DNA of 64,000 nt from Polytrichum commune (taxonomy: Eukaryota; Streptophyta; Polytrichopsida; Polytrichales; Polytrichaceae): positions 20,956,001 to 21,020,000 of the forward strand of contig OX485803.1 in assembly GCA_950295325.1 (NCBI GenBank), given 5' to 3'. The notes under the pieces are model-generated. The model saw only the letters and a program-made list of their open reading frames with translations. It did no database searches and was not told the DNA's origin. The first letter of the stretch is position 1; each line of letters starts with the position of its first letter. Below are positions 38,768 through 63,192 of this stretch, piece after piece. Position numbers and translations under genes: made by a program.

Positions 38768-38768
38768 C

Positions 38769-38775
38769 TATATAA
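38769..38775 (+). promoter_or_regulatory. TATA box of element H LTR
   Basis: CTATATAAGGAGG lies upstream of the repeat-rich leader, the primer site and the H genes on the same strand. Its position suits the U3/R border of the H LTR. Confidence 0.55.
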
Positions 38776-40353
38776 GGAGGCCACTTGGGGGCCCTAATAC
38801 ACTTCATTTCATCCCGAATATTATACATGAGTGTCCGGACCTCGGACTTTGTTGAGACGTGAGGCACCCGTGGTGCAAATTAACTTGAGAGCTAAAAGAT
38901 TACTTTGAGACGTGAGGCACCCGTGGTGCAAATTAACTTGAGAGCTAGAGAATTACTTTGAGACGTGAGGCACCCGTGGTGCAAATTAATTTGAGAGCTA
39001 GAGAATTACCTTGAGACGTGAGGCACTCGTGGTGCGAACTAACATGAGAACTTGAGACGTGAGGCACCCGTGGTGCAAACTAACATGAGAGCATTCGTGA
39101 ACGCAAGGCAATCGCACTCAACCTCAAGAATTACCTACGGCTTAGGGAATTGAAGAAATTACTTTGCGGCCAAGTTATGGGTTGAAGAAGAAGGGTGTAT
39201 ACGTGCACGTTCATCGGAAACTTGGAGGATTAAGTTTACCACATTAAAAGGCTTTGCATTCACAACCTATACAAAATTATACAAAACTAAAAGTAAAGAT
39301 TGAGGGTAGGAGGATTGGCCAAGTGGCTAGTACCGGCTTACTTGGGCAAGGTGTATCGACTCGGAGATTACACCTAGACCGTGATTACCTCTTTCCAAGT
39401 GAAATCGGATTTGAGGTAATTGTAGGTGTAATCTACTTGAGTGGTACCCCAAGTCATCGAGCGCTAGGAGATGATTCAAAGGGAAGGGCTAAGCCGCCAC
39501 CTCGCCTTCACATCACCTACCTTACCACATATAGCCTAAGGAGAGAATTTCCGGTAGCCAAAGGGGGACACTCGGGAATTAAGCAAAGATTCGTAATGCC
39601 CCTCGGAATGTAGGTAAATATTAATCATACACCTTTGAGTGGTAGCGGATTATTATTCCGTGTGGACAAGAGAATCAACAAGGATTCTTTACCTTCAGGT
39701 GTTATTAGGTGATTTGGATATAGTGAGGAAATACTTATCCCTTGATACCGAACGTTTGACAAAGAATCCGATACTTGGGAACATGAGGGGATGATAAATA
39801 TTCTAAGAGAGTAAAACATTTTAGGAATTAAGTGGCTTTGACTTAGTGAGGGAGAATGCTTGTCTTATGGAGAAATTGGGCAAGATGCTTGAAGACTTGA
39901 ATGGAACGAGAGATATGTTATAAGAACTTGAATGGATAAATAGGATTGTGAATAATTTCAAACCATGAAAGATATTGTATAAGAGCGTTTCCCCTCTTAA
40001 CACTTAACCGTGACATTACACTTCTGGGAAAACATTAGCTTGAGTTCCAAGACACTTACTCAATAGGAATTCGTGAGAGAATTATTAAGAGATATTGAAC
40101 GTGCATTTACGTGTTTCCTGTTAAGGACACTTTAGGGGGACATAAACTTGTAAACTTAGATCAACTATTCCTAGAGAGTTTATAAGTACATTGAAACTAT
40201 ATTACGGGATTGAGACACAGAAGATTGCAAACACCTTCACGAGATACAGGAACTAAAGAAGATCTAATTTTGGTGGGAGTAACTTCCATGTAAACCGGTT
40301 CAGCAGCGGGTTACACCGTCTAAGGCTGGAAGGTTGAAGGTGGCCTCCCAACA
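38776..40353 (+). mobile_element. Element H 5' LTR (R-U5 part) up to the primer site
   Basis: This non-coding region ends CCTCCCAACA, a CA terminus three bases before a primer site. It holds the 53-bp hairpin repeats at 38854-39090. The LTR start is not identified, because the 3' LTR lies beyond 64000. Short open frames here (e.g. 39254-39613) do not resemble proteins. Confidence 0.6.
38854..39090 (+). repeat. Five tandem 53-bp hairpin repeats in the H leader
   Basis: Units start GAGACGTGAGGC at 38854, 38907, 38960, 39013 and 39054 (spacings 53, 53, 53 and 41). Each holds GCACCCGTGGTGC, a perfect 5-bp stem with a CGT loop; the fourth unit reads GCACTCGTGGTGC, which keeps a G-U pair. Confidence 0.9.
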
Positions 40354-41241: not shown

Positions 41242-42213
41242 TGTCGCAACCCTTGCTAGCTCCCTTAACAATCTTGCCAATTTTTGTTTCTAGCAAAGGT
41301 TACGAGCGCTAACCATTCGCATTCCGCCATGCTAATGGATAGCTCCTCTTACCCCGGACCAATAGTTCATAGGAGGGAACCAACCCTCCTACTTTGCTTT
41401 CGGGACTCACCCCTTAATCGGTAACCCATTTCCCCAATGTGGACTTCCATCCATGGAAGTCCAATCCTATGTTGATCATTGCGTTGCCGGAGCAACACTA
41501 CAACAACCCGAACCATACTAGGCAACTATGGCCTCACAATAGGCCAAAGCCCATGGAGGCCTTGCCGTTCGGCCTCGGGTGGGTGACGCCACACCACCTC
41601 ACCCATATAAGCCTCTAGGACTTCACGCGGGGCCCCTACCCCACCGTCAACCAACCTCTTGTCTCTCTACCAAGAGTTGGGGCCAAGTGGACATTTTCCT
41701 TTAGCTGCTGGGCCTAGAACCCCCTAGCAGCTTCAGACCATCATAACTTCCTTTTATGATGTCTGATCATAACAACCAACCACTCCATCTTCATCTACGC
41801 TTCACGTAGATGCCGATGGACTCCTCACTTGCCCCATTCGGACAAGTATTGAGGACGTTATGCCTGTTTGAACCTTGGCAGTCCCGGGAATCACTCCCAG
41901 GCACTGCTGTAGCAGGGCGCTGTCCCGGGACAGCGCCCCACTCAAATGGCCATAACTCCTAGCTCACACCTCCGATTGAGGTGTTCTTGAGCTTTCTAGA
42001 ATCACCACGCCATGAGCTACGCATAACTCATGGCCTTACCCTTGTGCCTCCTAGTCTTCGTGGGTGGGAGGCGTTCCCAACGCCTGGGGCCCTCACCCAC
42101 ACTAGGATCACTTGGGCCCTCTCACCAACGGCGCCACAAGTCCCGGGTGTCACTCCGGGGTCCCCCTTGTGCCCATGGTGTTTCGGGCACTCCTCATGGA
42201 GAGGTGCGCGACA
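41242..42213 (-). repeat. Element G 3' LTR (972 bp)
   Basis: TGTCGCAACCC to GGTGCGCGACA, followed by the polypurine-tract sequence. Confidence 0.94.
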
Positions 42214-42566
42214 CTCACCCCCACCAAACGGAGTCGATGCCCTCATCGACTATAGTCGTAGTCGGCACACCAATTCTCAAGTTGCCATCCTCTATGGTGC
42301 GGCATTGTGTTTACCTTAGGGCGTGACCCCCACAATGCATCTTCAAATTTGGCATAGTCCCAAAGGTGTCGTTCCTAGGTGGTCCGTTAGCGACCTTGGA
42401 TCTCTCCTCCAAGGACCTAACCTACACTAGACCCACCTACTTTGGGACTCACTTGGGTTGCCCCTCCTTTGGGGCCTCCCCCATTAGGCTCCACTAGCCT
42501 AACGTGACACATCTAGGCGAGACCTCAACGCTTCCACTAAGTTGTCTCGGTTGCAACTCCGAGATG
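42214..42566 (-). other. Element G 3' untranslated region, first part
   Basis: Homologous to 3493-3850. Interrupted by element I1 after AGATG and resumed at 45408-45868. No gene. Confidence 0.75.
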
Positions 42567-45402
42567 TGTGGTACTTTTGGGCCACCCCCTTTCGAGGGAG
42601 CCTAAAAGTATCACACAAGCCCTTCGGTGAAGGTGGCCTGCATTTGCAGGCGCCCAAGCCGAACCCGGATGATAGGTGTATAACGTGAGTAGTTAGATTT
42701 TTAAGGGAGATTAAATATGCGTCGTAGTACCTCCGGAGGTTAGGCCTTAGTTTTTTACTAGTGTGGCTTTAAACTCCACTAACCAATTTCATATCTAGTT
42801 CTAACCTTAACCTACAACCTATTCTACGCGCAGACGCACCAGCCTTGAAACCAAGGCAATCCTAATTTGTGAATTGGGATGGTTCTGATACACCCAACCG
42901 GGTGTGACTCATACCACCCTAACTCAACGAACGGAATAACGACAATTTGATGGACCATTCAATTCTTCCTATTTCTTTATTTATTTCTATTTAGTTTTCT
43001 AAGCGGGGGAACTTGGCCTAAGTCCCACCCTTCACACAAATTCCTTCTTAATTACTTACTTTTGTTTGCACGTCCTAACTCACTACATTAACATATTAGG
43101 CATCACCCCTTACCTCGGGTCTCTTGCCAACAAGGGTTTACGATTTATTTTGTATGTTTTGATTGTTAAATGTGTTTACACTGGATAGACCACGAAATGC
43201 AACTCAATGGGACCAGGGTGACGGGCGACCTGTAGGTTCAACCTGTTGCGCAATCTTCATAAATTGGGGCCATTACTCCCAATCTATGGGGCCAACAACA
43301 TAATAGTGGATTCGCGGGTCATTAACCCCACCTTTCCACCAACAACATTCAGAGTGGTCGTGTCGGTGATTAATCCGACTTACCACACACGAAACTTGCT
43401 AATAAATGAAGCTACTACCACAAAACATACCAAGGGCCCCGAAAACAATGGAATTGGGTACTCCCTTGGCGGTCAAGTGGTCAAGCCACTTGACCTTACG
43501 GGATAGGTGAGTGGGTTTAGAAATGCGTACCTTAGCCGTGCTCACTCCAATCCTAAATGGAAGGCTTAAGGTTAGTTAATTTACCTCAATTTTCCTCGGT
43601 TGATTTGGGCTTGATGTAGGCCGAGCCGCTACCTCCTTCCTTGCTCCACTTTCCGAGCGTCGACCTTGCCTCCTTCTTTGTAACTAGTTTGGTAGTAAGC
43701 GTACCTTAGTTAACAATTAAAATATAAAGTGTTATTCTGCCCTGTAATTTAATCCTAAGCATAATATTTATACTTAGTGCACCAAATTATCTTTCCAATG
43801 ATCTAAAAATCACTCTAATCGGATAAGAAATGCAAAAGTTATGAGGGTTGGAAGTGTGAGGTCGATTCAACCGACCCTTCCAACCCACCTATCTACCTTC
43901 TAACTTCAAGAATTCATAGCACATTCCTTACTACTTGGATCTAGGCTTTCCTTATACCATTGGAAAGCTATGAACAAGCTCTAACTAGAAAAATTATGAC
44001 ATTAGCAGGTTAAGCTAATAGAAATTCAGCGGACTCCTTGTAACACAGCAGTCAATCAAGAAGGCTTAAACTATGTATCTCGCCTTCAACAATTCATATC
44101 TAATTCAAATCTTAGTCAAATCAAACGTTCTATATGACCCTGCAGAGATATTAAAAATATGTATTTGATAAAAATATGTGATTAGAAAGGTAAGCCGAAG
44201 TGAACCCAGCCGGTCCTCTGTAATGCAGCAGTCAACCAAAAGTTCTCAAACTATGTGTCCCATCTTGCACAATTCATATCTAATTCAAATCATGCTCAAA
44301 TCAAATGTTCTAAGCCATTTTGGAAAGCTACACAAAAGTTCTACTTGGGAAAAATATAATTTCTTGGAATTAAAATTCCTATTGGGCTCGCAGGTCTGAT
44401 CCAGCAGCCGCTACCCACAAGACCACCCAGTTTTTCTACTCCATCTTTGAAAATCCATAACTAATTGTCATCTCAACCAAATCACAAATGGGAAACGGCT
44501 ATGGATAGCTATATGAAATCTCTCTAAGAGAAAAATGATAAGTATCTTGTTCTAGCTTTTGAACTAAGCCTTCAGGGCATTGGCAGATGAGGTCTATAAT
44601 GCCTCTACTCAAAACTCTACCATCCAACCTACCTCTACAAAAGAAGGAATAATTTTGTTGGTGTGTTAATAAACACACAACCTAACTAGGAGAGAGAGTA
44701 GAGGAGGTTCTCAAGCCTTTCTTTTAGACCATTGAGAATACATGCTAAAGGATTTTTCCTAACTACATTGAAGCAGGGCTTCGCCCAAAAACTAGAGAAA
44801 GAGAGAGAGCTACAAGGTGGAAGGAGGGGTTTTTAAACCCTCTCACAAAAGGGTTGGACCCCTCCTCCACCGGATCCATTTTTCAAACCCTTTCCCGAAA
44901 TTTTGGCTCGGGGGTTTTCCCGGTTGAGGTTGCCATCCTCTCGCCGAGGTGGCTCCGACAAAAAACCTTTAGAAATCTTTCTAATTTTTCCGCCATCAAG
45001 TTGGCCAGGGGGCAAGTGGGCAAGTATCCCCCTTGCTCTCTTTCTTTTTTGTCTTCAAAATTCTTCACGCCGATTTTATCTTCTTACGTAAAACACCTCC
45101 AATAGTCTTGTGTGCCTCACACTAACTAATAAACTAACACTTGCTTAGCTAGCATCTACTAACATTTGCTTAATAACTAGCATCTACTAATATTTGCTTA
45201 GCTAGTTGTTTTTACTAGCTAGCACATTTTTTCTACTTTGCTATCTTCTAGCACTACTTAGTTTCATTTTGACCTTCCTTCTTCTAGGCTAAATGCTAAA
45301 TGAACTAATTTTCCCTAAATTCCCTATCAATTCTAACTTTTAATGCTAACATTCTAACTAAAAGTGATCCCGCAGAGTGGTGGACCACTCAAAGGGTTCA
45401 CA
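42567..45402. mobile_element. Element I copy 1 (2836 bp, non-coding, TG...CA)
   Basis: Begins TGTGGTAC, ends GGTTCACA, flanked by the duplication AGATG (42562-42566 and 45403-45407). No protein is encoded. It starts with a 49-nt hairpin (TGTGGTACTTTTGGGC against GCCTAAAAGTATCACA) and holds about four units of a 180-bp repeat (43820-44540). TG/CA ends and a 5-bp duplication fit an LTR retroelement, most simply a solo LTR. The second copy at 57407-60242 has the same length and appears identical. Confidence 0.88.
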
Positions 45403-45407
45403 AGATG

Positions 45408-45868
45408 GCTTTCCATTGTTAAGCCACGCCTCGATCGTACGGGGGTGATGCCAAGTCCCGCCCGACTCGATTCCCACTTTGCTCTTTCGAGACATGGGTT
45501 CATGACTCCCATGCGCCAACTCTCGTTAGCTCGCGGGTAGCACTTTTATGAGCACGCGCCATCACCTTGTCCCCGCCCGGACAAGCCCACAACTAAGAAG
45601 TTTCTTGGTTTTATCCAAGGCCCCTCGAAGCCATGGCCCCCAATTACTCGGCTTACCCAACCTAGTTTGGCATATCTATTTCCCCTCTTCCATTAACCAA
45701 GCACAAGTACAAGACTAGGACCTCATCTCATACTTTTCTCTTTGCACCACTAAAGTTTGGACTTTATTCCCTCAAGCCAAAGAACAAGTTAATGTTGTGG
45801 AGCAATTAGCCTCGAAGCTAAGTGTGCTACTAGCGTCTCTCCCCCACTAAAGGAGATTGATGTCCTCA
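45408..45868 (-). other. Element G 3' untranslated region, second part
   Basis: Continuation after element I1. Non-coding, homologous to 3850-4307. Confidence 0.72.
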
Positions 45869-47639
45869 TCAATGCCTACGCTTCATTTTATTGAAATGTC
45901 TAGCCTTAATTTCTTCAAAGTGCTTTACCAATTCCTTGCCGTTCATCATGTCTCTTGCCGCCACCCAAACGGCTTCTTTCTCATGGTATCCTCACCATTT
46001 CACCAAGTACTCCTTTGTACATTTTCTTTCATTTTCACTTGGGCTTCCTACACTTGAGGATGCCCTCTTACCTCATGTTCCAAATGACCTCCACAAGGTT
46101 GGGACGTGGCCTAATCACTTGCTTGTGATCGGGCCACAAGGTGTCGCCCTAAAATGACTTTCGTAATGAGACATGAAATGTCGGATGCACTTTGATGTCC
46201 GGCGGTAATTCCAACTTATACATGTCCTTGAACACTTGTTCCACAATGGAAAACGAAGCTCCAATTTTGGACATGAACTCTTGGAGCGAGGCCTTCCGGC
46301 TAAGTGAAGTTGTTCACATTCAACAACACCTTTTGGCCCACCTCATTCTCCACTTCGCGTCTTCCGGCATTTACTAGCACTCCGTAGCACCTTCGGGCTT
46401 TCTCCACCAACAACTTGGTCATCTCCAAGACTTGTTTACCATCCTTGGCCAAGTCCTCACCATCTTGGTTGAACTCTAGTGTTGAATGTGCCCCCTCGAG
46501 AGCTAGGTTAATAGGTTGGAGCGCATCCACTCCATAAGCCACCACCAAAGACCACCCCTTGGTAGCCAAGTGCGTGGCTACATTGCAATTACACTCCGCT
46601 CGACCCACATAGTCCGCCCAATCTCCTTGGTCCGCCCCCACCAAGTTCCTCAAGTATTGCTTCAAGTCTCCATTCACATGCTTTGTTTTCCCATCCATTT
46701 GGGAATACACGGCCGTGCTAAACCTTAGTTTCAATACAACCTCCTTAGAGAAATGCATTGAAAATGCACTTGTGAACTTTGGATCTTGATCCCACACAAT
46801 CACTCTTGGCAACCCGTGGTGCCTCAACCATCCTTTGAGAAAAGGCTATGCGGTCTCCAACGCGGTGGCGGTTCCCACAATCGGCACCATGTGTGCCAAC
46901 TTGGCAAACCACTCTACCATCAACAAGATGGCATCATACCCATGTGACTCCGGCAAACTTGTGATCAAGTCCATGCACATACGATGCCATGGCGCCGACG
47001 GGATAGGCAACGGTTGCAAGAAACCGCCTTGCTTTTGGTAAGAGGCTCGGTTCACTTTGCACTTTGATTCAAGCCTTCACAAAGTGGGTTATATCCTCCG
47101 TTATGCACCGCCAATGGTATCTCTTTGACACCATTCTATGGTGGTTTTATTTTTCTCGTCTATGGCCGGCAATAGGACTATCACATTCCTCCTTCAAAAC
47201 CGATAGCCTCAACTTGCCTTGTGGCACATACACCCAACTTTGCTTGCACTTGAACAATCCGTCCACCAACTTAACCTCTTTAAGCTCACCTAAAAGCTTT
47301 TGTGCTTTGGGGTAGTTAATTTACCCCTCCCGTATCTTGCATCACAAGTTTCCTTCGCCGGCACACATTAGCCACAAGGTTTGGATGGTTCTCATTGCTT
47401 GGAACTCTTTCCGTCTACTTAGCGCATCCGGCACCACATTTCCACGGTCCGGTTTGTGGACCAAATCCACCTTCATAAGCGCCAAGCTATCATGCCAACG
47501 CAATGATTTGGCGCTCACTTGCGCTTGTATGTCAAAATACTTTTAGGACACATTGTCCTTGTAGACCTTTACTTTGTGCGACCCCAACTAGTGTCGCCAC
47601 ATCTTCAAGCAATACACTACGCAAAGAAGTTCTTTGTCA

Positions 47640-48310
47640 TGAGTTGGTTGTCTTCTTTGACAACCATCGAGCTACATGCTCGCATATGCAATGGCCATCC
47701 ATCTTACACATAATCCACCATTGGCAAAATCATTCACCCCCATATGCACCTCAAAAGGTTTGTCAAGCTCCGTGAACTTGAGCACGGGCGGTGAAGAGAA
47801 CTTGGTCTTAAGCTCCCCAAAGACTCGTGACAAACATCATCCCACTCTTGGGATAGCCATTTCTTCCACAAGTCGAACCATCGAGCTTCATGCTCTCGTA
47901 TGCAATGGCCATCCATCTTGCATCAACATCCGCCAATGGTAAAGTCCTCGCCCCCCGTATGCACCTCAAAAGGTTTTTCAAGCTCCGCGAACTTGAACAC
48001 GGGTGGTAAAGAGGAACTTGGTCTTAAGCTCCTCAAAGACTTGGTGGCAAGGCTCATCCCACTCTTGGGATAGCCATTTCTTGCACAATTGGACAAGCTT
48101 CTACAACCATGGAGCTTAATGCTCCCATAAGCAATGGTCTTCCATCTTGGATCAACATCCGCCAATGGTAAAGTCCTTTGCCTTCATGTGCACCTCAACA
48201 TGCTCATGAAAACCCGAAACTTAACCACATCTTGTGAAGAGAACTTTTTCTTGAGCTCCCCAAAGCCTTGGTGACAAGGCTCATCCCACTCTTGGGATAG
48301 CCATTTTTTT
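47640..48310 (-). repeat. Three-copy tandem repeat of RNase H-coding segment in G
   Basis: Marker GGATAGCCATTT near 47858, 48069 and 48296, spacings of about 211 and 227 bp. Homologous to the repeats in B and D. Confidence 0.8.
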
Positions 48311-49142
48311 CAACATGTTGACTAAGGTTCTAGCAACCTTAGAAAAACCATGAATGAAGTGGTGGTAGTAGTTGGTTAGGCCAACAAATGACCTAAGCCC
48401 TTTTTTTGAATCAAGGGCCAATTCTCTTCTTGGATTGCCTTGACATTCTTCATGTTTGTCCACCAACTTCCTTTGTCACCACATACCTCAAGAACTCAAT
48501 CTCTCGTTGAGCAAAGTTATTTTTCACTCCTTGGCGGTGACTTTTTGGGCAACACATTGGTGAATACATCCTTGTATCTCACCAACATCCCACCAATGTG
48601 ATTTGGAGGAGGCCCATCTTTCCTAGCCTCTTCATACATTCCTTGGAGTTGCTCCAATGGAACCACGACCATTATGTTTTCTATTTTTCAGTTGGTCCAT
48701 TAAGACCAAATTCACCTTGGGTCCTCCTACCATAGGAGTCCTTGTCAATTTGAACTTCAATTCTTTGCCATTATGACACATCATAATGCACCGCAAGCTC
48801 ACCGGCTTGCACCTCATATCTATCATGTGAGTTTCAAAGTAGGCGGCCTTCACAATGACATGCATTTCATCTATTTCACATGGTGTGAAATTTTGACAAA
48901 AATCCAATGTCCCACATTGAAAGGTTACATGCATCGCGGCCTCCTTTGTCTCATGCGGTTTGCCCTTTCCAAACCGCACCTTGGTGGGCTTGCTTTCTCT
49001 ATCAATCGGCAAGCCCCAACTCCCTTGTGAGTTTTGGGCTCAAGAAGGAGTAATAGCCTCTTTGTCAACACATGAGACATTTCTCCCATTCATTTGAGCC
49101 TCAAGGTACAAAATACTTGGCCTCGGCTTAAGGCTACTAGCC

Positions 49143-49470
49143 TTGGCCACAAAGCCATCGTCCAACATTTGGTCCTCGGCAACTTGGCTTGGCTTGGTCC
49201 GCAAAGCCAACTTTAAACATTTCGTCCGCGGGACAAATTGGTTTGGTGCCACAAAACCAATTTCTCATAATTTGTCCGCAAAACAAACATGTTTTGCCTT
49301 GGTAGCACAAAGCCACCTTCTCACACTCCGTCCATGGCACAAACATGAATTGCCTTGGTAGGACAAACCCACCTCCCAACATTCCCTCCGCGGCACAAGT
49401 ATGATTTGCTTTGGAAGCATAAAGCCACCTTTCAACATTCCGTCTGCGGCACCAATATGTTTTGCCTAAG
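49143..49470 (-). repeat. 56-bp tandem repeat in element G gag
   Basis: Same array as in A and B, uninterrupted. It ends at GCCTAAGTAAAATGG, the unfilled equivalent of the E insertion site. Confidence 0.8.
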
Positions 49471-50111
49471 TAAAATGGACCAAACAATTTGCACTCATTT
49501 CTTTGGGACCTACTTTGGCTAAAGCCACTTGTGGTGATGCGCCGCCAAACTTCTCTTTGGGACCATCGGCTTCAATGCTCTTGCAAACTTGATGGTCCCC
49601 ACCATGTCCTCAAGAAGCCTTAGGGACTTAAACAAGGCATCCACCACCCGCTTTTAAAACCCCACCTAAAACGATGCATTTCTTAGAAAGCTCGTCCGTT
49701 TTAGGTGTATCCTTCATTTGTGCGTTTGAATAGCGCACATAGGCCTTAAGAGGCCCCGGGTGCCTCATTAGCATCAAGTTCATTTCAACATCCGAACCTT
49801 CAAAGCATCTCGAATTGAAATTCCAATCCAACATTAATACCCTCCAAGGTTTTGGGTGCTTTTGGTATTCTAGGCCCCAAATGTTTTTTGAGGTTTGCGG
49901 GAGCCCTTTTCAAAGCACTCCTCCATTTTCCTTACCAAATCCACCCTCATGCCCACCATTGTCATTAGAACCAATGGTATGGTCAAATTCCACTTGCACA
50001 TGATCCTTGTTCCAATTTGAGCCTCACAACCTTTTGGAAACCCCGGGCTCACCATCACAACCCGCATTTTTTATAGCCATGTTTCCCTCAAAGTGCGAGC
50101 TCAAAACTTGG

Positions 50112-50129
50112 AACCCTGCTCTGATACCA
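50112..50129 (-). other. Primer binding site of element G (tRNA-iMet)
   Basis: The minus strand reads TGGTATCAGAGCAGGGTT, two bases from the 5' LTR. Confidence 0.9.
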
Positions 50130-50131
50130 CG

Positions 50132-51103
50132 TGTCGCAACCCTTGCTAGCTCCCTCAACAATCTTGCCAATTTTCGTTTCTAGCAAAGGTTACAAGCGCT
50201 AACCATTCGCATTCCGCCATGCTAATGGATAGCTCCTCTTACCCCGGACCAATAGTTCATAGGAGGGAACCAACCCTCCTACTTTGCTTTCGGGACTCAC
50301 CCCTTAATCGGTAACCCATTTCCCCAATGTGGACTTCCATCCATGGAAGTCCAATCCTATGTTGATCATTGCGTTGCCGGAGCAACACTACAACAACCCG
50401 AAGCATACTAGGCAACTATGGCCTCACAATAGGCCAAAGCCCATGGAGGCCTTGCCGTTCGGCCTCGGGTGGGTGACGCCACACCACCTCACCCATATAA
50501 GCCTCTAGGACTTCACGCGGGGCCCCTACCCCACCGTCAACCAACCTCTTGTCTCTCTACCAAGAGTTGGGGCCAAGTGGACATTTTCCTTTAGCTGCTG
50601 GGCCTAGAACCCCCTAGCAGCTTCAGACCATCATAACTTCCTTTTATGATGTCTGATCATAACAACCAACCACTCCATCTTCATCTACGCTTCACGTAGA
50701 TGCCGATGGACTCCTCCCTTGCCCCATTCGGACAAGTATTGAGGACGTTATGCCTGTTTGAACCTTGGCAGTCCCGGGAATCACTCCCAGGCACTGCTGT
50801 AGCAGGGCGCTGTCCCGGGACAGCGCCCCACTCAAATGGCCATAACTCCTAGCTCACACCTCCGATTGAGGTGTTCTTGAGCTTTCTAGAATCACCACGC
50901 CATGGGCTACGCATAACTCATGGCCTTACCCTTGTGCCTCCTAGTCTTCGTGGGTGGGAGGCGTTCCCAACGCCTGGGGCCCTCACCCACACTAGGATCA
51001 CTTGGGCCCTCTCACCAACGGCGCCACAAGTCCCGGGTGTCACTCCGGGGTCCCCCTTGTGCCCATGGTGTTTCGGGCACTCCTCATGGAGAGGTGCGCG
51101 ACA
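50132..51103 (-). repeat. Element G 5' LTR (972 bp)
   Basis: Same ends and length as 41242-42213. On the plus strand it holds CATATAA at 50493 and an ATG at 50920 whose frame runs into the H Gag frame. Confidence 0.94.
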
Positions 51104-51108
51104 ACATA

Positions 51109-54100
51109 TCTAGCACGAGAAGCACATCACCAACCCCAAGGGAACAAGAAGCAGAGCGGAGGCATGTGGAGCGCATGCACTCTAGAGAGGATTCTGTGAG
51201 ACGGAACGAACAACAGAAGAGAGAAAGAGAAGAGAGGTACGCGAGGCGTACGCGTCAAAGAACTACAGGAGAAGAAGAAACTCGAAATGTTTCTGAGCCA
51301 CCGGCAGTAGGTTCCCACACCACCAAACCTATCCACCAAAGGAGTCAAAGTGAAGGAGGAGGTAAAGATAAAACATACAAAGAAAAAGACACAACGGAGA
51401 ACAACCCAACTCAAGATGAAAGCGAAGACGAAGATGACTTGATAATAGGTACCCCTCTTGGGACCTATGTGTTAAGAACAAAAGGTACAGGTGAAACCAC
51501 CGGGACGAATACCCCAGGGAGTGGGGTGCAGGATAAGGGTAAATACCCTCAAGGTAACACGACCAGGGAAAACCTTTTCACCCAAAGGAATTGGGAGGGA
51601 TTGAAAAGGAATTTTGACGAACAATTCAGTTACGAGGACTCCGGTTTCTCCGGAGGAAGCACGCAAAACAACACGAACAAGGAAGTGAAGAAACCTATCA
51701 GTCAAGAGGAGTTTGACGAATTAAGGAGGAAGTTTGAAGAGAGACTCAGGCAATTCCAAAATCTTGGAAATAACCCCGGAGTCAGCCCACCACCAGCCAA
51801 CAACAACAACGTACCAAGTTTTGGAAACAACCCATCTAACCCGGCCAACATGGCCGCTCAACCACGAAGAACGAAGGTTCCCTTACCGACCTATAAAGGT
51901 AAGACTGATCCTGATACGTACATGCAAGAATTTAACAATGTTTGTCTTGCCAACCAGGAAGACACCGACGCAATCAAGCTACAATTATTTCCAGTTACTT
52001 TGAAGAAGCGAGCACTAGAATGGTATTCTCAATTCGGCCCACATCATTTTCCGGATTGGCCCTCCTTGGGAGCTGCCTTTCTTATGAGATTTAGATCCAA
52101 GAAATCGGAGGGAGAAGTGATTGAGAGTCTAGGATCCCTGAAGCAGAAGAAAGATGAAACAGTTGAAGAATTTTACGAAAGGGTTATGGTGGAATCATCG
52201 AAGATAAATCTCCAACCCAGCAATCAATTCAAGAAGGCATGGTTTCTTAATGGCCTTAAGAAGGAGTATGCCAAACACATTGATCTCATGCCGACCGATG
52301 ACTTAGACGAAGCCAAGGCCTCAGCTCGGAAACTGGAGCTAGGTCAAATGAGGAAAGGAAGATTCCTCGATGAAAGTGACAGTGACGACTCGAGCGATGA
52401 CTCGGAAGAAGAACGCAAGAAGAAGAAGAGAAAGTCAAAGGGTAAGAGAAACGACTCTACCAAAGATGACATAAAGACCCTCAGGGAAGAGATTGAAGGA
52501 CTGGCTCTAGGGAGCAGGAAATTTCGAACAGGCATCATCTGCCGGAGATGCCGTAATGAAGGACACTACGTGCAGGAGTGTCAGATGAAGCAGTGCACCA
52601 ACTGCAACAGCCTAACGCATAACACAAGTGAATGTGTTTATGAACGGCACGAATCTCGGAGACCCCGGGATAGGAGATATGGGGTGAACCAAGTGCAACC
52701 CCAAACTAATCGAAGGCCAGGAGCGATAACTCCTAGGCGGGAAATGAATGAAAGGAGAGTTCGGTTTGAACCAAGAATGGAATATAGAAGAGAAGAGAGA
52801 TCCCCTTATAGGGAAGGCGATTACCGGCGGGAGGCGGGAGGCCCCTACCGGGGAAATGAATATCGCAGAGATGATCGGCCTTATTACAGGCCCAATGATA
52901 GCTACAAGGATGATTTCAGAAAGGAAGGTTATTTCCCTTACAAAACCCAAGATTTCCGGAGGGAAGATGGATACCCCTACCGAGGAGGCCCCAGAGGACC
53001 TATCAACCATGACAGGTATGAATATACCAGAAGCCTGATGGATAATAACAACACCAAGGCAGCGCCGAGAACTGGGTTCACTGGCGGACCACAGCGAGAT
53101 GGCAACCCCGACGAGTGTTTTTATTGTCATCAGAAGGGGCACCGGAAGCCGGATTGTCCGCACTTTATTAAACACCAACAGGAGTTGAGTGGATTTAGAA
53201 ACACGAAACCGGCAGTAGGAGCCAATGTGGTGTCCCCTGCGGTTTGTGTGATGACGAGAGCCCAACGGGCTGCAGCCGGGGAAGGCAAGGAAGATAGTGA
53301 GAGCGACGACAGTGATGATGATGATGATTCGAGCAGTGGCAGCTCTGAGGAGCAGGAAGACCACCAACAAAGAGATGATAACTCTGATGAAGAAAGAGGG
53401 GTGGTGCGCGAGCAGGACGCACACCTTAATGAAGATAAGGATATTAAGGAAAGGCCGATAGGAGCCAACAGTGAAGAATGGAAAGCGGATAGGGAAGTCC
53501 ACCGGGAGGTGAGTAAGACTATCCATGAGATACAGGAGGAAGAGGGCGAAGCTCTACCCACGCCAGAGGAGTTCGCACCTTGGTACCCAGAAAAGGAAGA
53601 GGCAGAGAAGCCCACAGTACGGAGCCCCGAGAAAGGAGGCAACCCAATAGCTACCCAGGCAAGGGTAGATAAGATCTTGGAGAGTGTGATGAATCACACG
53701 AAAGCAAACATATCAATCGGACAGTTACTTGAGATAGCCCCTTATTGCAAGAAGCGAATAATGGCGGCGTTGGCACATGAAGAGAAGTCGAAGGAACCGA
53801 CTCAAACATATCAAGTTACGGCGAAGGCATTTGATGAAGAGATGCCCATGATATCCGTAATTGTAAAGAACAGGCAGGTACCGAATGCCTTAATTGATGG
53901 TGGATCAGGAGTGAACATCATCACGGACACGTTAAGGAAGCAATTGGGACTCAAGAAAATAGAGCCCGCACCATTTACCATAAAAATGGCTGACCAAAGA
54001 AAAGTCATGCCCAAAGGAATTATCCGGGACGTACGCCTTGATGTTGGCGGGATTATAATCCGGACAACACTCACTGTTATAGACATGGTGAGTACTGAAG

Positions 54101-57100
54101 ACAGTTACTCCCTATTATTGGGAAGACCTTGGTTGAAGGAGGCACAAGCTCAACATGACTGGCCCCTTAACAAACTGACCTTGACCCAAGGAGGGAACAA
54201 GGTGGAAGTAAGTACTCGGAGAACACCAGCACTATCACCTGCAAAGAGACCCTTGCATTGGGAGGATTACGACTGGGAGATGGGACTATCGGATGAAGAA
54301 GAAGCCATAGTTTATGAGGCCTTCCCCGAACTACTCCCCATGGGAGATTTCGACTTGAAAAGCTTGAGGAAGCTACAAGAACCAAGTTGCAATACAATGG
54401 AGATTGATACTATCGGAACACCTACACCACAGGGAGGTAAATCCGAGAAACCTCGGTCGAGGAAAGTGACCAAGAAAGAGCAAGAGGCTATGGAGGAAAA
54501 GCCTGTATACCCCTCCCAGTTTTACAAAGCAAAAGAAGGAAATATAATAGTGGACCGTACCCCTGCCACAGAGGCTGTCAAGGGAAAGAAAATAGCCGGA
54601 TGGACGGTTGAAGATGAAGACTTGGTCAAAAACTTGAACTTAGGTACTCCGGAGGATCCTAAGTTGGTCAAGATAGCCAAGGATTTAGGTGACTATGAAG
54701 CACAAGTGAAAGAATTGCTATTGAGATTTAAGGATGTGTTCGCCTTTACATACAAAGACATGAAGGGAATACCTCCATATATATGCGAGCATAAGATTGA
54801 ATTGCAGCCTGAGGCCAAGCCTGTAAGGCAAATGCGTTATCGAATGAATCCCAATTATGCCGCCAAAGTCAAAGAAGAAATCGACAAATACTTGGAGGCA
54901 GGATTCATATACCCCGTCGACAAAACGGAGTGGTTATCACCAATTGTGATTGTGCCCAAAAAGAATGGGAAACTCCGAGTATGCGTGGACTACCGGAAAT
55001 TGAATGCAGTCACCAAGGTAGATCCTTTTCCCCTACCTTTCACGGAATCAATTTTAGAAGCGGTTGCAGGACACGAGATGTACACGTTGATGGACGGGTA
55101 CAGCGGCTACAACCAAATCATGATTGCGCTGGAAGACCAGCTGAAAACCTCTTTCATCACCGAGTATGGAGCATTCGCATACCGAGTGATGCCTTTTGGA
55201 TTGATGTGTGCACCAGCCACCTTCCAAAGGGGTATGATGAAGATCTTTGCCGATTATCTCGACAAATTTATGAAGGTCTTTCTGGACGACTTTACCGTAT
55301 ATGGCACCAAGGAAAACCATATTGAACACTTGGAGAAGTGTCTCATTAAATGCCGCGAAAATGGAGTAAGCTTGAACCCGGAGAAATGTTATTTCTGTGT
55401 AAATTCCGGGAGGCTCCTTGGACATGTAGTATGCAAGGAAGGATTGTTGGTGGACCCTAAGAAGGTGGGAGTCATAAAAGAATTACCCCCACCAACCACA
55501 GTCCGGGGAATCCGGAGTTTCTTGGGACAAGCCACTTACCATCGCAAATTTATATGGATGTATGCGGATATCACTCGACCTTTGTACTTATTGCTCAAGA
55601 AAGGAGAAAAGTACATTTGGACCAAGTCTTGTCAGGAGGCCTTTGAGGAAGTAAAGAAAAGGCTCACGACCACACCCATTCTCATAACTCCCAATTGGAC
55701 TATGGACTTCCACGTACACTGTGATGCGTCCAACATAGCTATTGGAGCCGTCTTGGCCCAAAACATACATGGAGATAGAGATTCTCCAATTCATTATGCA
55801 AGTCGACTGTTGAACAGTGCTGAGAAGAACTACAGCACAACGGAGCGCGAAGCTCTAGCAATGGTCTATTCAGTGGGCAAATTTAGGCACTATTTACTGG
55901 CCAACCATTTTGTCTTCTACGTAGACCATCAAGCGTTGTTATACTTGGTCAATAGACCAATAGTATCCGGGCGTATTGCAAGATGGATGCTTTTGCTTCA
56001 GGAATACGACTTTGAAGTGGTCTACAAGCCCGGTAGAAGTCATGTCATGGCGGACCACTTATCGAGAATTGAAAGTGGAGAAGAACCCTCAGGGGTGCAG
56101 GATCAATTCCCAGATACGAATTTATTCATGGTACATGTGCAACCCTTTGAAGATTGGCGAGCACCGTTTATTGAATACCTTACACACGGAAAACTATTAT
56201 CCGTACTCGCTACTCCTGAGGAACAAATTAAAATTAGACAGCTGAGCGAACCTTTCGTTTTGGACGATGAGAAGCTCATGCGAGTCAGTATCTCCGGCAA
56301 AATACAAGAATGCATAGCCGGAGACATCATCGAAGAAATTATAGGTGAAGCGCACGAACAAGACGGAGTGCATTACAATCTGTCTACTACATGGCAATAT
56401 GTATTACGCGCACCTTATTGGTGGCCTACTCGGCGAAGGGACGTACTGGAGTATTGCGATGAATGCCCAGTATGTAAGGTATTAGACCAAGGGGACGTAA
56501 CTGGAGACCCCACCCCACATGACTCCGAAGACGACGATGACCCCCTTCCTATCAAACCTTTGGAGGCACAAGAGGACCTGAATGGGAAAGCGGAACCAGA
56601 TTGGACAACACCATACGTCCAATATCTAACCTGTCAAACGTACGGAACCCCATGGGTGAGTTCCCTACCCCTGGAAGAAAGGAGATTGCTTGCCTACCGC
56701 AGTCAATTCTTCATACTCAAGGAAGGAGAATTGCATCGCATGTTTCACAATAGCATCATAAAGAAATGTATCCCTGGAAGATATGTGAGGAGTTACATCA
56801 AGACCCTCCATATAAAGGAAAACCGGCATTTCTCGATACCCGCCACCAGGCAACTAGTGCTGCAAGGCCCTTATTGGTGGCCAACCATAGCGGAGGATGT
56901 TTCACTACTCATCACGCTCTGCACTGAATGCAAAGGACCGGGAAAAGAGTTACCAATAGAAGGAAGCTCTTCACAACCTAGTCAGGAGACAGAACTAATA
57001 CCCTACAAAGAAACCTTCAATGATTGGAGAACACCCCTGGTTGAATACATGACACGGGGGAAGTTCAAGATGGATATGGAGACTCAAAGAAGGCAACAAG

Positions 57101-57406
57101 AGCTCATACGTGAGAGTGAGTTTTTCACAGTGGAGAAAGGAAAACTCCCGAAGTTAGAAAAGAATGGAAGGGCAAAAATATGCATTGCGGACTATCAAAT
57201 AAAGCATTATATAGCAAGAATGCATGTTTATCGAAAAGCACACCTAAACGATCAATACACTTGGCTCCGATGTTTACACGGGAACCGGTGGTGGCCCACG
57301 ATGGGGCTAAGTGATGTACAAATATACATTGAGTATGATTGCCGAGCCTGTCGAGAGCGATTTATAGGCCCATACCATAACATAATATGTGGGTCCATTG
57401 TGGCAC
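51109..57406 (+). CDS. Element H Gag-Pol, main part (Gag, protease, RT, RNase H, zinc modules 1-3)
   Basis: A non-chromovirus Ty3/Gypsy polyprotein, closest in RT motifs to Athila/Tat. In order: Arg/Glu-rich N-terminus; Gag core about 51870-52290; three CCHC knuckles (52541-52582, 52592-52640 region, 53110-53160); a Tyr/Arg repeat region between knuckles two and three (52780-53000); an acidic run (53283-53400); protease Asp in LIDGGSGVN (about 53895); RT with FLDDF (about 55280-55293); RNase H (FHVHCDAS, about 55707; YVDHQALL, about 55918). Then come zinc modules 1, 2 and 3 (56152-56476, 56599-56934, 57022-57357). The frame is open throughout. It begins in the LTR of G on paper, but its native ATG is 41221. 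It is cut at 57406 by element I2. Confidence 0.93.
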
Positions 57407-60400
57407 TGTGGTACTTTTGGGCCACCCCCTTTCGAGGGAGCCTAAAAGTATCACACAAGCCCTTCGGTGAAGGTGGCCTGCATTTGCAGGCGCCCAAGCC
57501 GAACCCGGATGATAGGTGTATAACGTGAGTAGTTAGATTTTTAAGGGAGATTAAATATGCGTCGTAGTACCTCCGGAGGTTAGGCCTTAGTTTTTTACTA
57601 GTGTGGCTTTAAACTCCACTAACCAATTTCATATCTAGTTCTAACCTTAACCTACAACCTATTCTACGCGCAGACGCACCAGCCTTGAAACCAAGGCAAT
57701 CCTAATTTGTGAATTGGGATGGTTCTGATACACCCAACCGGGTGTGACTCATACCACCCTAACTCAACGAACGGAATAACGACAATTTGATGGACCATTC
57801 AATTCTTCCTATTTCTTTATTTATTTCTATTTAGTTTTCTAAGCGGGGGAACTTGGCCTAAGTCCCACCCTTCACACAAATTCCTTCTTAATTACTTACT
57901 TTTGTTTGCACGTCCTAACTCACTACATTAACATATTAGGCATCACCCCTTACCTCGGGTCTCTTGCCAACAAGGGTTTACGATTTATTTTGTATGTTTT
58001 GATTGTTAAATGTGTTTACACTGGATAGACCACGAAATGCAACTCAATGGGACCAGGGTGACGGGCGACCTGTAGGTTCAACCTGTTGCGCAATCTTCAT
58101 AAATTGGGGCCATTACTCCCAATCTATGGGGCCAACAACATAATAGTGGATTCGCGGGTCATTAACCCCACCTTTCCACCAACAACATTCAGAGTGGTCG
58201 TGTCGGTGATTAATCCGACTTACCACACACGAAACTTGCTAATAAATGAAGCTACTACCACAAAACATACCAAGGGCCCCGAAAACAATGGAATTGGGTA
58301 CTCCCTTGGCGGTCAAGTGGTCAAGCCACTTGACCTTACGGGATAGGTGAGTGGGTTTAGAAATGCGTACCTTAGCCGTGCTCACTCCAATCCTAAATGG
58401 AAGGCTTAAGGTTAGTTAATTTACCTCAATTTTCCTCGGTTGATTTGGGCTTGATGTAGGCCGAGCCGCTACCTCCTTCCTTGCTCCACTTTCCGAGCGT
58501 CGACCTTGCCTCCTTCTTTGTAACTAGTTTGGTAGTAAGCGTACCTTAGTTAACAATTAAAATATAAAGTGTTATTCTGCCCTGTAATTTAATCCTAAGC
58601 ATAATATTTATACTTAGTGCACCAAATTATCTTTCCAATGATCTAAAAATCACTCTAATCGGATAAGAAATGCAAAAGTTATGAGGGTTGGAAGTGTGAG
58701 GTCGATTCAACCGACCCTTCCAACCCACCTATCTACCTTCTAACTTCAAGAATTCATAGCACATTCCTTACTACTTGGATCTAGGCTTTCCTTATACCAT
58801 TGGAAAGCTATGAACAAGCTCTAACTAGAAAAATTATGACATTAGCAGGTTAAGCTAATAGAAATTCAGCGGACTCCTTGTAACACAGCAGTCAATCAAG
58901 AAGGCTTAAACTATGTATCTCGCCTTCAACAATTCATATCTAATTCAAATCTTAGTCAAATCAAACGTTCTATATGACCCTGCAGAGATATTAAAAATAT
59001 GTATTTGATAAAAATATGTGATTAGAAAGGTAAGCCGAAGTGAACCCAGCCGGTCCTCTGTAATGCAGCAGTCAACCAAAAGTTCTCAAACTATGTGTCC
59101 CATCTTGCACAATTCATATCTAATTCAAATCATGCTCAAATCAAATGTTCTAAGCCATTTTGGAAAGCTACACAAAAGTTCTACTTGGGAAAAATATAAT
59201 TTCTTGGAATTAAAATTCCTATTGGGCTCGCAGGTCTGATCCAGCAGCCGCTACCCACAAGACCACCCAGTTTTTCTACTCCATCTTTGAAAATCCATAA
59301 CTAATTGTCATCTCAACCAAATCACAAATGGGAAACGGCTATGGATAGCTATATGAAATCTCTCTAAGAGAAAAATGATAAGTATCTTGTTCTAGCTTTT
59401 GAACTAAGCCTTCAGGGCATTGGCAGATGAGGTCTATAATGCCTCTACTCAAAACTCTACCATCCAACCTACCTCTACAAAAGAAGGAATAATTTTGTTG
59501 GTGTGTTAATAAACACACAACCTAACTAGGAGAGAGAGTAGAGGAGGTTCTCAAGCCTTTCTTTTAGACCATTGAGAATACATGCTAAAGGATTTTTCCT
59601 AACTACATTGAAGCAGGGCTTCGCCCAAAAACTAGAGAAAGAGAGAGAGCTACAAGGTGGAAGGAGGGGTTTTTAAACCCTCTCACAAAAGGGTTGGACC
59701 CCTCCTCCACCGGATCCATTTTTCAAACCCTTTCCCGAAATTTTGGCTCGGGGGTTTTCCCGGTTGAGGTTGCCATCCTCTCGCCGAGGTGGCTCCGACA
59801 AAAAACCTTTAGAAATCTTTCTAATTTTTCCGCCATCAAGTTGGCCAGGGGGCAAGTGGGCAAGTATCCCCCTTGCTCTCTTTCTTTTTTGTCTTCAAAA
59901 TTCTTCACGCCGATTTTATCTTCTTACGTAAAACACCTCCAATAGTCTTGTGTGCCTCACACTAACTAATAAACTAACACTTGCTTAGCTAGCATCTACT
60001 AACATTTGCTTAATAACTAGCATCTACTAATATTTGCTTAGCTAGTTGTTTTTACTAGCTAGCACATTTTTTCTACTTTGCTATCTTCTAGCACTACTTA
60101 GTTTCATTTTGACCTTCCTTCTTCTAGGCTAAATGCTAAATGAACTAATTTTCCCTAAATTCCCTATCAATTCTAACTTTTAATGCTAACATTCTAACTA
60201 AAAGTGATCCCGCAGAGTGGTGGACCACTCAAAGGGTTCACAGGCACAGCCACAGAAAACCAAGGATTGGAGGAAATTATTGATTGAGTACCTCACCTAC
60301 GGGTACCTTAAGGGGCCCCACATTTCGAAAGGACAACAGAAGAGGATTGCCCGCCAGAGCCGGGAATACTTTATCGAAGAAGGCAAATTGAAAAGAATAC

Positions 60401-62184
60401 TATCAACCGGGGAAGTCAAGATATGCATTGCCGGTCATGAGGTAAACAAATACCTACAAGAATTACATATCACGGACACAAAAGAGCATCTTAGCATGGA
60501 GACCACATGGCACTTGTCCATGTTTGGGCCATATTGGTGGCCCACGTGCGGGTCCGACATCAAGAACTTATGCAATGGGAAATGCCCGGTATGCAGCTAC
60601 CAAGTCGGGCTTGCAACAGAAAAGGAAACACAAACACTTCTAGGTGAGAAGAGCCTAGATTGGAGACGTCCATATTTGGAGTACCTAACATGCGGAAAAA
60701 TCTTCGACCAAGCCCTACCACAAGAGGTAAGAGAAGCGGTGGAGCAAAGCCATAAGCATTTCGTGTTCACCAACGGTACTTTGCAACGGATACGCAGAGG
60801 AGGAAAGAGTAACCAGATGTGTATACCAGAGACTCAAGTACCCGCGTACTTAGCTAAGATTCATGGGCAAAGCATGCCCCATTTGGCAGCCATAGAAACC
60901 TGGAAGGCCGTAGCCACCGGGGCATATTGGTGGCCAACGTGGGGACATGACGTGTGCAACTACCTAAAGCATTGCGAAAGTTGTACAGGAACAGAGACCC
61001 TAGAAAACCACACTGAAGGGAGTCAAAGCGCGACGCTCCCAGAAACAACATCCAAGCAGGATTGGAGGCGCTCAGTTATACAACGACTAGAGAGTTTTGA
61101 AGATTGGAACTTTGTTGACACCCCGGAGAATACGGGATTACTTGACCCGAATGCTGAGATGTATTTCAAAACCAAGGACGGGTTGAAGTATCAATTGCCC
61201 GGTGGAGAGGTGAAAATGTGTATCACAAAAGGAGACGCCATCGATTGGGTAAGACGGGTACACGAATATCAAATACCACACTTGACTACAGAAGAAACAA
61301 CCACTCAAGTGCACGAAGGCCCGTATTGGTGGCCAACTATCTCTCTGGACGTGAAACATTTAGTTGACGAATGCCGGACATGTCAACTCGGGACAACATT
61401 AAGCCTCCAAAAGGCGAAGTATGGAACCATCCCGTTCAGAAGAGGTGAGGCTCAGGATTGGCGAGAACCAATTATACAACACCTCAAACACCCGATGGAA
61501 TTAAGCGAATTGGCATTCCAAGAAGAGTTAGGAATATTGAAGGAAGAAATATCCGATTATTTCTTGGAAGAGGATATATTGAACCGAAGGTTAAATGGAG
61601 ACATCAAATTATGTATCTCCCAAGATGAGGGAATCGAGTGGCTAACAACCATTCATAAACAAAGATCCCCACATCTCTCGATGGATGAGATGATCTCGCG
61701 GGTCGCTTCAGGACCTTACTGGTGGCCCACAATACCACCAGACGTCGATCATCTCTGTAAGAACTGCGTGCAGTGTCAGCCTCGAGAAACCCCAAAACAT
61801 GTGATCGACTGCCGAACGGTCACAAGCAAAGACAAGGAGGAACTCGATTGGAGAGCTCCTTTCATCGACTACTTGAGGCATGGTCGATTGACCACGGAGG
61901 CATCGACCACCCAACGACAACAAATAGCAATACGCAGTAGGCCGTATTGGTTAACCCACGATGGGACCTTGATCAAAGAAGGCCCTGATGGCTTACGGAG
62001 AATATGTGTAAATGGGCCAATAACTACTGCCATTATTGCTGAGGCCCATGAGGGAATTGCCGGAGGGCATTTTTCAGCCAACATTACTCTACACAAGGTA
62101 TTGACCGCCTTGTATTGGTGGCCCACCATGAAAAGAGATGTGTATTTATATTGCACCCAATGCGATATATGTCAAAGAGTTGGT
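56152..62184 (+). other. Array of eight integrase-type HHCC zinc modules in H
   Basis: Each module has a DW(R/T)xP..(E/D)YL-like start, a (I/L/M)CI-type strand, H-x5/6-H, (Y/R)WWPT and C-x2-C. Starts: 56152, 56599, 57022, 60265, 60658, 61060, 61456 and 61846. After removing I2, spacings are 447, 423, 402, 393, 402, 396 and 390 bp, all multiples of three. His pairs include HEQDGVH, HIKENRH, HVYRKAH, HITDTKEH, HGQSMPH, HEYQIPH, HKQRSPH and HEGIAGGH. Cys pairs include CPVC, CTEC, CRAC, CPVC, CESC, CRTC, CVQC and CTQC. Only the last, joined to the DDE core, has the classical HxGxxGH form. Linkers differ in length and sequence. Confidence 0.93.
57407..60242. mobile_element. Element I copy 2 (2836 bp) inside H pol
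   Basis: Same ends and length as 42567-45402 and apparently identical. Flanked by its own duplication GGCAC (57402-57406 and 60243-60247). Removing it and one GGCAC restores the H frame between zinc modules 3 and 4. The starting hairpin is at 57407-57455. No gene within. Confidence 0.9.
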
Positions 62185-63192
62185 CCCAAGATTTCAACCA
62201 ACCTCCAACCCTTACATCCCACAATGCCCACTGAGGTATTTCAGAAATGGGGCTTGGATTTCATTGGACCAGTCAATCCGCCAGCTAAAGGTACCAAAAA
62301 TCGGTACATTATTACAGCAACTGACTACACCACCAAGTGGGTGGAAGCAAGAGCCCTAAAAGACAACACGGCTAAATCAACAGCCAAATTCCTCTTTGAG
62401 GAAATAATCACAAAATTTGGATGCCCATTGGAGTTTGTAAGCGATCAAGGAAGTCATTTTATTAACGATACCATCAAAGCGCTCACTCAAGAATTTATGA
62501 TTTTACATCGAAAGTCAACAACCTATTACCCACAAGCTAATGGGCAAGTGGAGAGCACCAACAAAGTGATCAAGATCGCCTTAACCAAAATGGTTAACGC
62601 CAATCGAACAGATTGGGACACCAAGTTGCATGCAGCACTTTGGGCATATAGGACAGCCTATAAGGTGACGACAAAGCACACCCCATTCTCTTTAGTATTC
62701 GGGACAGAAGCTTTGTTACCTATGGCCTACCTACATCCTGATATTCACCAACGGAGGAGCCAGGATATACATCCCATTCTTAAGAAAAGGATGGAACAAC
62801 TCCAAATCATTGACTTAACTCGACATGAAGCAGAAGAAAACATGAGGCATATGCAATTATTGCGCAAGGGAAGGCATGACCAACCTCGGAAACGGACACA
62901 TGGCAAGCAGTGTCACCACGAAACAAGCAAAACTTCCCAAAAGAAAGCCAAACGGCATGATACTTTGGAGGAAGGAATTATGCAAGCCACGGAGGAATTC
63001 AAGCACTCCCCAAGGAGTGAAGAGCCCGAGCTACCGGCCATACCCAAAATACGATTTTACCCCGGCCAAAGAATCTTGTGGCACTTACGCCATAAAATAC
63101 CCGGGCCGGGCAAGTTCAAGATAAGATGGGCAGGACCTTACCTTATTAAGCAAGTTTATGACAACGGATCAGTTGATGTCACCACCCTGTAG
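60248..63192 (+). CDS. Element H Gag-Pol, second part (zinc modules 4-8, integrase)
   Basis: Continues the frame of 51109-57406. Zinc modules 4-8 start at 60265, 60658, 61060, 61456 and 61846. The integrase core follows with Asp in GLDFIGPV (62257), Asp in VSDQGSHF (62443) and Glu in GQVESTNK (62551), giving the DD35E spacing. The C-terminal region has a basic stretch and a GPYLI motif (about 63139), with no chromodomain. A TAG at 63190-63192 ends the frame within the usual VDVTTL.GE...G.VN.SKLKPY tail. The same frame continues to 63711, so TAG is either a recent CAG-to-TAG change or a readthrough point. The joined coding length 41221-41241 + 51109-57406 + 60248-63192 is 9264 bp, exactly 3088 codons including the stop. 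Confidence 0.92.

Follow-up and report, generated by a model that had tools for sequence, protein, structure and literature searches.

The window analysed here, a 64,000-nucleotide stretch of the Polytrichum commune genome (C1:20956001-21020000; genome of 408 Mb with seven large contigs), contains a Ty3/Gypsy retrotransposon in which eight tandem modules, M1 to M8, lie between RNase H and the catalytic (DDE) core of the integrase. The 5' long terminal repeat (LTR) of the element is in the window, and an identical 2201-bp 3' LTR lies beyond it, at C1:21024275-21026475. Since the LTRs are identical over 2201 bp, the element is young, and they point to recent movement of a multi-module element. 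Its LTR-to-LTR span of 32.3 kb contains about 12.7 kb of insertions, leaving about 20 kb for the element itself, and about 5 kb separates the integrase from the 3' LTR. A nested LTR retrotransposon occupies the 5' part, and a 2836-bp solo LTR of another element divides the module array, so that this copy is interrupted, with each side open. The first open stretch (50917-57406) carries matches to gag (with zinc-knuckle-like motifs, Pfam), to protease-like sequence, to reverse transcriptase (RT) and to RNase H, followed by three modules (56152-57405); the second (60250-63192) carries five modules (60265-62178), the core and a GPY-type C-terminal region. The two stretches were analysed apart; copies free of the solo-LTR interruption occur elsewhere in the genome.

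The original prediction had described eight in-frame modules of 130-150 residues between RNase H and the core. Eight modules were indeed found, with a spacing of 130-149 residues from start to start where measurable and a module core of about 110 residues, but the array is not continuous in this copy because of the solo LTR. As predicted, one motif order is common to all eight in the alignment: DW[RT], CI (CV in M8), H-x5/6-H, WWPT and C-x2-C. D1, W2, L42, C54, the two H, WWPT, D97 and the two C never vary among the eight; overall pairwise identity is 22-38%, with strong divergence outside the motifs. All eight retain the HHCC zinc ligands by sequence, which holds for this copy but not for the whole family (see below). 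An integrase zinc-binding (H2C2) profile had been expected to detect every module; far from matching M8 only, Pfam Integrase_H2C2 matched seven of the eight, two upstream of the solo LTR and five downstream, and M3 was detected only by our own profile and by its motifs. It was also observed that Cys54, which is outside the HHCC set, is present in 108 of 109 modules of a wider alignment.

Table 1. Features of the multi-module element and of the insertions that interrupt it (window coordinates; TSD, target-site duplication; pLDDT, predicted local distance difference test score).
Feature	Position	Strand	Evidence and remarks
5' LTR of the element	38153..40353	+	2201 bp, no difference from the 3' LTR
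Nested LTR retrotransposon, outside the system	41242..51103	.	972-bp terminal repeats 99.4% alike; 5-bp TSD ACATA
gag-pol, first open stretch	51104..57406	+	Open frame begins at 50917, within the nested element
Retrotrans_gag match	51982..52260	+	Pfam, E 1.4e-07
Reverse transcriptase	54952..55428	+	Pfam RVT_1, E 3e-26
RNase H	55618..56007	+	Pfam RT_RNaseH_2 and RT_RNaseH
M1, acidic	56152..56481	+	Pfam, profile, alignment
M2	56599..56937	+	Profile, alignment
M3	57022..57357	+	Own profile and intact motifs
Solo LTR from a different element, inserted downstream of M3 within the linker	57407..60242	.	TG...CA ends; 5-bp TSD GGCAC
M4	60265..60597	+	Pfam, profile, alignment; structure model pLDDT 93
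M5	60658..60990	+	Pfam, profile, alignment
M6, acidic; without zinc ligands in one clade	61060..61386	+	Profile, alignment
M7, acidic; sister of M6	61456..61782	+	Profile, module tree
M8, adjoins core; positional counterpart of the single module of relatives	61846..62178	+	Pfam, profile, tree
Integrase core	62230..62532	+	Pfam rve, E 5.8e-11; D, D-x35-E present (alignment)
Integrase C-terminal region, GPY motif KIRWAGPYLI	63070..63192	+	Read from sequence; no Pfam chromodomain match

A profile built from 109 modules matched foamy virus integrase at residues 30-103 (E 2e-6). The predicted structure of M4 (pLDDT 93) was superimposed over its whole length on the N-terminal extension domain (NED) plus N-terminal domain (NTD) of foamy virus integrase (Z 9.7, root mean square deviation 2.4, 88 residues); it also matched Ty3 integrase (Z 8.1, deviation 3.7, 99 residues) and the isolated N-terminal region of murine leukaemia virus integrase (Z 6.0, deviation 3.3, 80 residues). 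Because these fold matches cover the whole module, what had been described as a linker plus a zinc domain is a single unit, and each module is a complete integrase N-terminal region of about 110 amino acids, made of the extension domain and the HHCC domain. A motif of about 40 amino acids preceding the finger has been described in Athila/Tat elements and in Ginger1 (PMC2836005).

The array is not peculiar to this locus. About 30 loci match the entire five-module stretch, many of them stop-free, with frames of up to 3716 amino acids. Eight modules were found at about 20 further loci, several as uninterrupted frames. In fetched loci searched with our own profile, eight modules were present for example in L010, L011, L017, L018 and L034, and five, the number of a sister subfamily, in most of L046-L057. 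By the same method, and checked from both sides, eleven modules were present in at least seven elements (L020+L039, L012+L044, L013+L045, L028+L042, L030+L043, L031+L041 and L032+L040). The multi-module layout occurs on all seven large contigs. This genome therefore harbours a lineage of Gypsy elements with five, eight or eleven tandem integrase N-terminal regions instead of one; the number eight given in the original prediction is right for this copy but is not fixed, as 1, 5, 8 and 11 modules occur. In two pairs of multi-module elements, L034/L035 (C5:27.13 and 27.15 Mb, 17 kb apart) and L032/L033 (C3:53.51 and 53.54 Mb, 27 kb apart), the protein from M5 through the integrase core is identical within the pair, perhaps as a result of local tandem duplication.

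The distance from RNase H to the core was calculated from paired match coordinates, by which single-module relatives were also judged. The values fall into discrete classes: relatives that share 53-59% RT-RNase H identity have 364-385 bp, five-module elements (75-77% identity) have about 2.0 kb, and elements with eight and eleven modules have about 3.2 kb and about 4.5 kb, respectively. In the relatives checked, the short gap contains exactly one full-length module. Since the distant relatives have one module, the ancestral number was most likely one. An older multi-module lineage may be represented by a decayed element at C3:39245934-39250804, whose RT and core are 72% and 70% identical and whose gap measures about 3 kb.

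In a tree of modules, M1 grouped in one clade with N1 (the first module of the extra block, N1-N3, of eleven-module elements) and F1 (the first module of the five-module layout, F1-F5), and M8 grouped with F5. M2 grouped with N2, M3 with N3, and M6 and M7 were sisters with F4 as their counterpart. The modules are old and position-specific. The N1-N3 block is 62-65% identical to M1-M3 of the window and is a diverged copy of it; L021 and L022 carry the N block instead of the M block. In a tree built on the region from M5 through the core, the eleven-module state requires at least four changes on well-supported branches; therefore, the three-module block has been gained or lost repeatedly, most simply by unequal recombination. 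Plain growth by threes, from five to eight to eleven, was considered and rejected: the step from eight to eleven fits, but the step from five to eight fails, as M6 and M7 are a separate pair related to F4.

Selection was gauged by dN/dS, as the median over pairs of copies; the values, obtained by counting on related copies, are to be taken as ranks. Values were 0.05 for the RNase H tail, 0.02 for the core and 0.08, 0.14, 0.14, 0.13, 0.16, 0.18, 0.11 and 0.06 for M1 to M8, compared with 0.15, 0.18, 0.42, 0.47, 0.65, 0.55 and 0.59 for linkers 1 to 7. Every module is under purifying selection, strongest on M8, which adjoins the core, and the looser linkers fit folded beads joined flexibly. The proposal that an N-terminal unit was amplified and then kept by selection is supported: RT relatives have one unit, the modules form homologous position-specific clades, and their dN/dS is 0.06-0.18. 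Zinc ligands have nevertheless been lost from M6 in the L027-L035 clade and from F3 in all five-module copies examined, with the DW and WWP parts retained. Charge is another point of difference: M1, M6 and M7 are acidic, and the other five (M2-M5 and M8) are basic. Signs follow one another likewise in the five-module layout, where F1 and F4 are acidic and F2, F3 and F5 basic; the M1/F1 and M8/F5 positions are recognisably common to eight- and five-module elements.

The element has the Ty3/Gypsy order of gag, RT, RNase H and integrase between LTRs (Pfam matches; identical LTRs), and a DDE core with a GPY/F-type C-terminal domain. It departs from the usual, although not strictly defining, single H2C2 domain per integrase, with eight here and 5 and 11 in sister elements. 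No chromodomain was present among Pfam matches through 63192, but this domain is missing from some known chromoviruses too (PMC6317226). The two open stretches, scanned without the part of the polyprotein that the insertions break up, gave no RVT_3-type (archaeal-type RNase H) match at E values up to 1; by that criterion the element is therefore not Tat. Phygy elements are short, with a polyprotein across nearly the whole internal part (PMC6317226), in contrast to the length of this element and its 5 kb beyond the integrase. Athila and Tat (OTA), which are non-chromovirus Gypsy lineages (PMC6317226), have a 'YPYY' motif of about 40 amino acids ahead of the H2C2 finger (PMC2836005). As in those elements, the order here is RT, RNase H, N-terminal region, DDE core and GPY domain, and a short conserved segment, not aligned to YPYY, stands just ahead of the finger; those elements have one N-terminal region, and the ones described here have five, eight or eleven. 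Motif order by itself makes Athila membership a lead.

The single-module Gypsy relatives in the same genome have the same domain order, and their full-length homologous module is 37-43% identical to M8; they differ in having exactly one module in the 364-385 bp from RNase H to the core. Spumavirus, gammaretrovirus and Ty3 integrases have the fold of the whole module (NED plus NTD) and HHCC in common with it, with one such region per chain. The lentiviral hexadecameric intasome (PMC9065133) also brings many N-terminal domains into one integration complex and is an analogy in function only; there multiplicity comes from many chains, whereas here it lies within one chain. In the open-access literature, subscription papers and preprints not being covered, no account was found of an LTR element whose integrase zinc domains are duplicated, multiple or arranged in tandem. 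A single protein compared with viral contigs gave no match, in a collection not expected to contain plant elements.

The reading that we favour, with an even chance of being right, is that the array is a specialised multivalent integrase scaffold. M8, next to the core, would perform the usual role of an integrase N-terminal region. The modules upstream of it, carried by the integrase itself or by its precursor within the particle, would act as the multivalent scaffold; in the pre-integration complex they would keep integrase chains close to each other, to cDNA and perhaps to a host partner. Known N-terminal regions are swapped between chains in intasomes and touch viral DNA (PMC9065133), and they make integrase-integrase as well as DNA contacts (PMC9065133; PMC8632968), so specialised modules could hold chains, cDNA and host factors. 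The coexistence of acidic, basic and zinc-less yet conserved modules suggests a division of labour among them. More tentatively, and rather less likely than not, one chain would carry five to eleven functionally distinct N-terminal regions, and a few chains would do the architectural work of the many that some retroviruses assemble; separate modules would be given over to cDNA, to integrase-integrase contacts and to host contacts, with blocks of them gained or lost between element lineages. In favour of a scaffold are the fold of the modules, their discrete numbers of one, five, eight or eleven, the position-specific clades with repeated exchange of blocks, the tighter constraint on modules than on linkers, the common order of charge signs and the recent movement shown by identical LTRs. 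Several points weigh against a scaffold. The loss of zinc ligands from M6 and F3 indicates that support of the canonical fold is dispensable in some modules; a structure prediction for five modules plus core reached a pLDDT of only 48 (12 sequences), with no contacts predicted; and the array may be cut by protease between modules or spliced at the RNA level.

Other readings of the same data were weighed. The main role of the upstream modules might be to attach to chromatin or transcription factors of the host and to pick the insertion site, leaving assembly to M8 and the core. Their diversity and partly acidic character are what protein contacts would call for, but distance to the chromosome end is no different between multi-module elements and single-module relatives (p 0.39; the comparison did not extend to finer targeting), and we regard such a targeting tether as somewhat unlikely. 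The basic charge of M2-M5 and M8, together with the length of the element even net of its two insertions, would suit modules that serve as an additional nucleocapsid, binding RNA or cDNA of the element inside the particle. This is unlikely: M1, M6 and M7 are acidic, as are the corresponding F1 and F4; zinc-knuckle-like motifs are present in gag already; and some modules have lost their zinc ligands. The three acidic modules likewise make a uniform nucleic-acid-binding array, one of the functions first suggested, less likely.

Tandem duplication might also have added modules with no new purpose, the chain having come to need them for folding or spacing only. Such a neutral ratchet would account for the ready shifts in module number and for the loss of zinc ligands; however, each module position is more constrained than its linkers and the M1/F1 and M8/F5 positions remain recognisable in five- and eight-module elements, which leaves it quite improbable. 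'Spare' modules, as first proposed, are less likely because of position-specific conservation. Finally, an assembly error, or pieces of different elements fused by chance, might be suspected in a copy into which a solo LTR and a whole LTR retrotransposon have been inserted. It can practically be discounted: the same layout recurs dozens of times, spread over all seven large contigs, and several of these loci have long open frames, so that the array is neither degenerate nor absent elsewhere, and assembly stutter cannot produce modules that differ from each other by 62-78%.

Across retroviruses and LTR retrotransposons, the number of integrase domains is generally regarded as almost constant; here one recently moving clade has multiplied the N-terminal region, diversified the copies and retained them under selection. 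The natural series of 1, 5, 8 and 11 modules in one genome makes the role of this region in multimerisation, DNA binding and target choice testable, and the array is a natural case of repeat-module evolution within a catalytic polyprotein.

Other observations were made in the window and the genome. Positions 1-34770 are a dense nest of one LTR-element family, in which at least ten LTR-like copies, each about 1 kb long and 80-99% alike, occupy both strands. Three tandem units of about 220 bp, 64-89% alike, lie at 47659-48340 within the nested LTR element. The solo LTR that divides the array has an identical 2836-bp counterpart 12 kb away, at 42567-45402 (TSD AGATG, compared with GGCAC), and their source element is very young. 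Elsewhere in the genome, the sequence at a LEAFY locus is YINKPKMRDYVHC; it has D at a site occupied by H in most other land plants. This D marks the moss form and was the ground for taking the organism to be a moss. A plant is expected to have one or two copies of LEAFY, and at least four loci (L060-L063) matched the LEAFY SAM domain.
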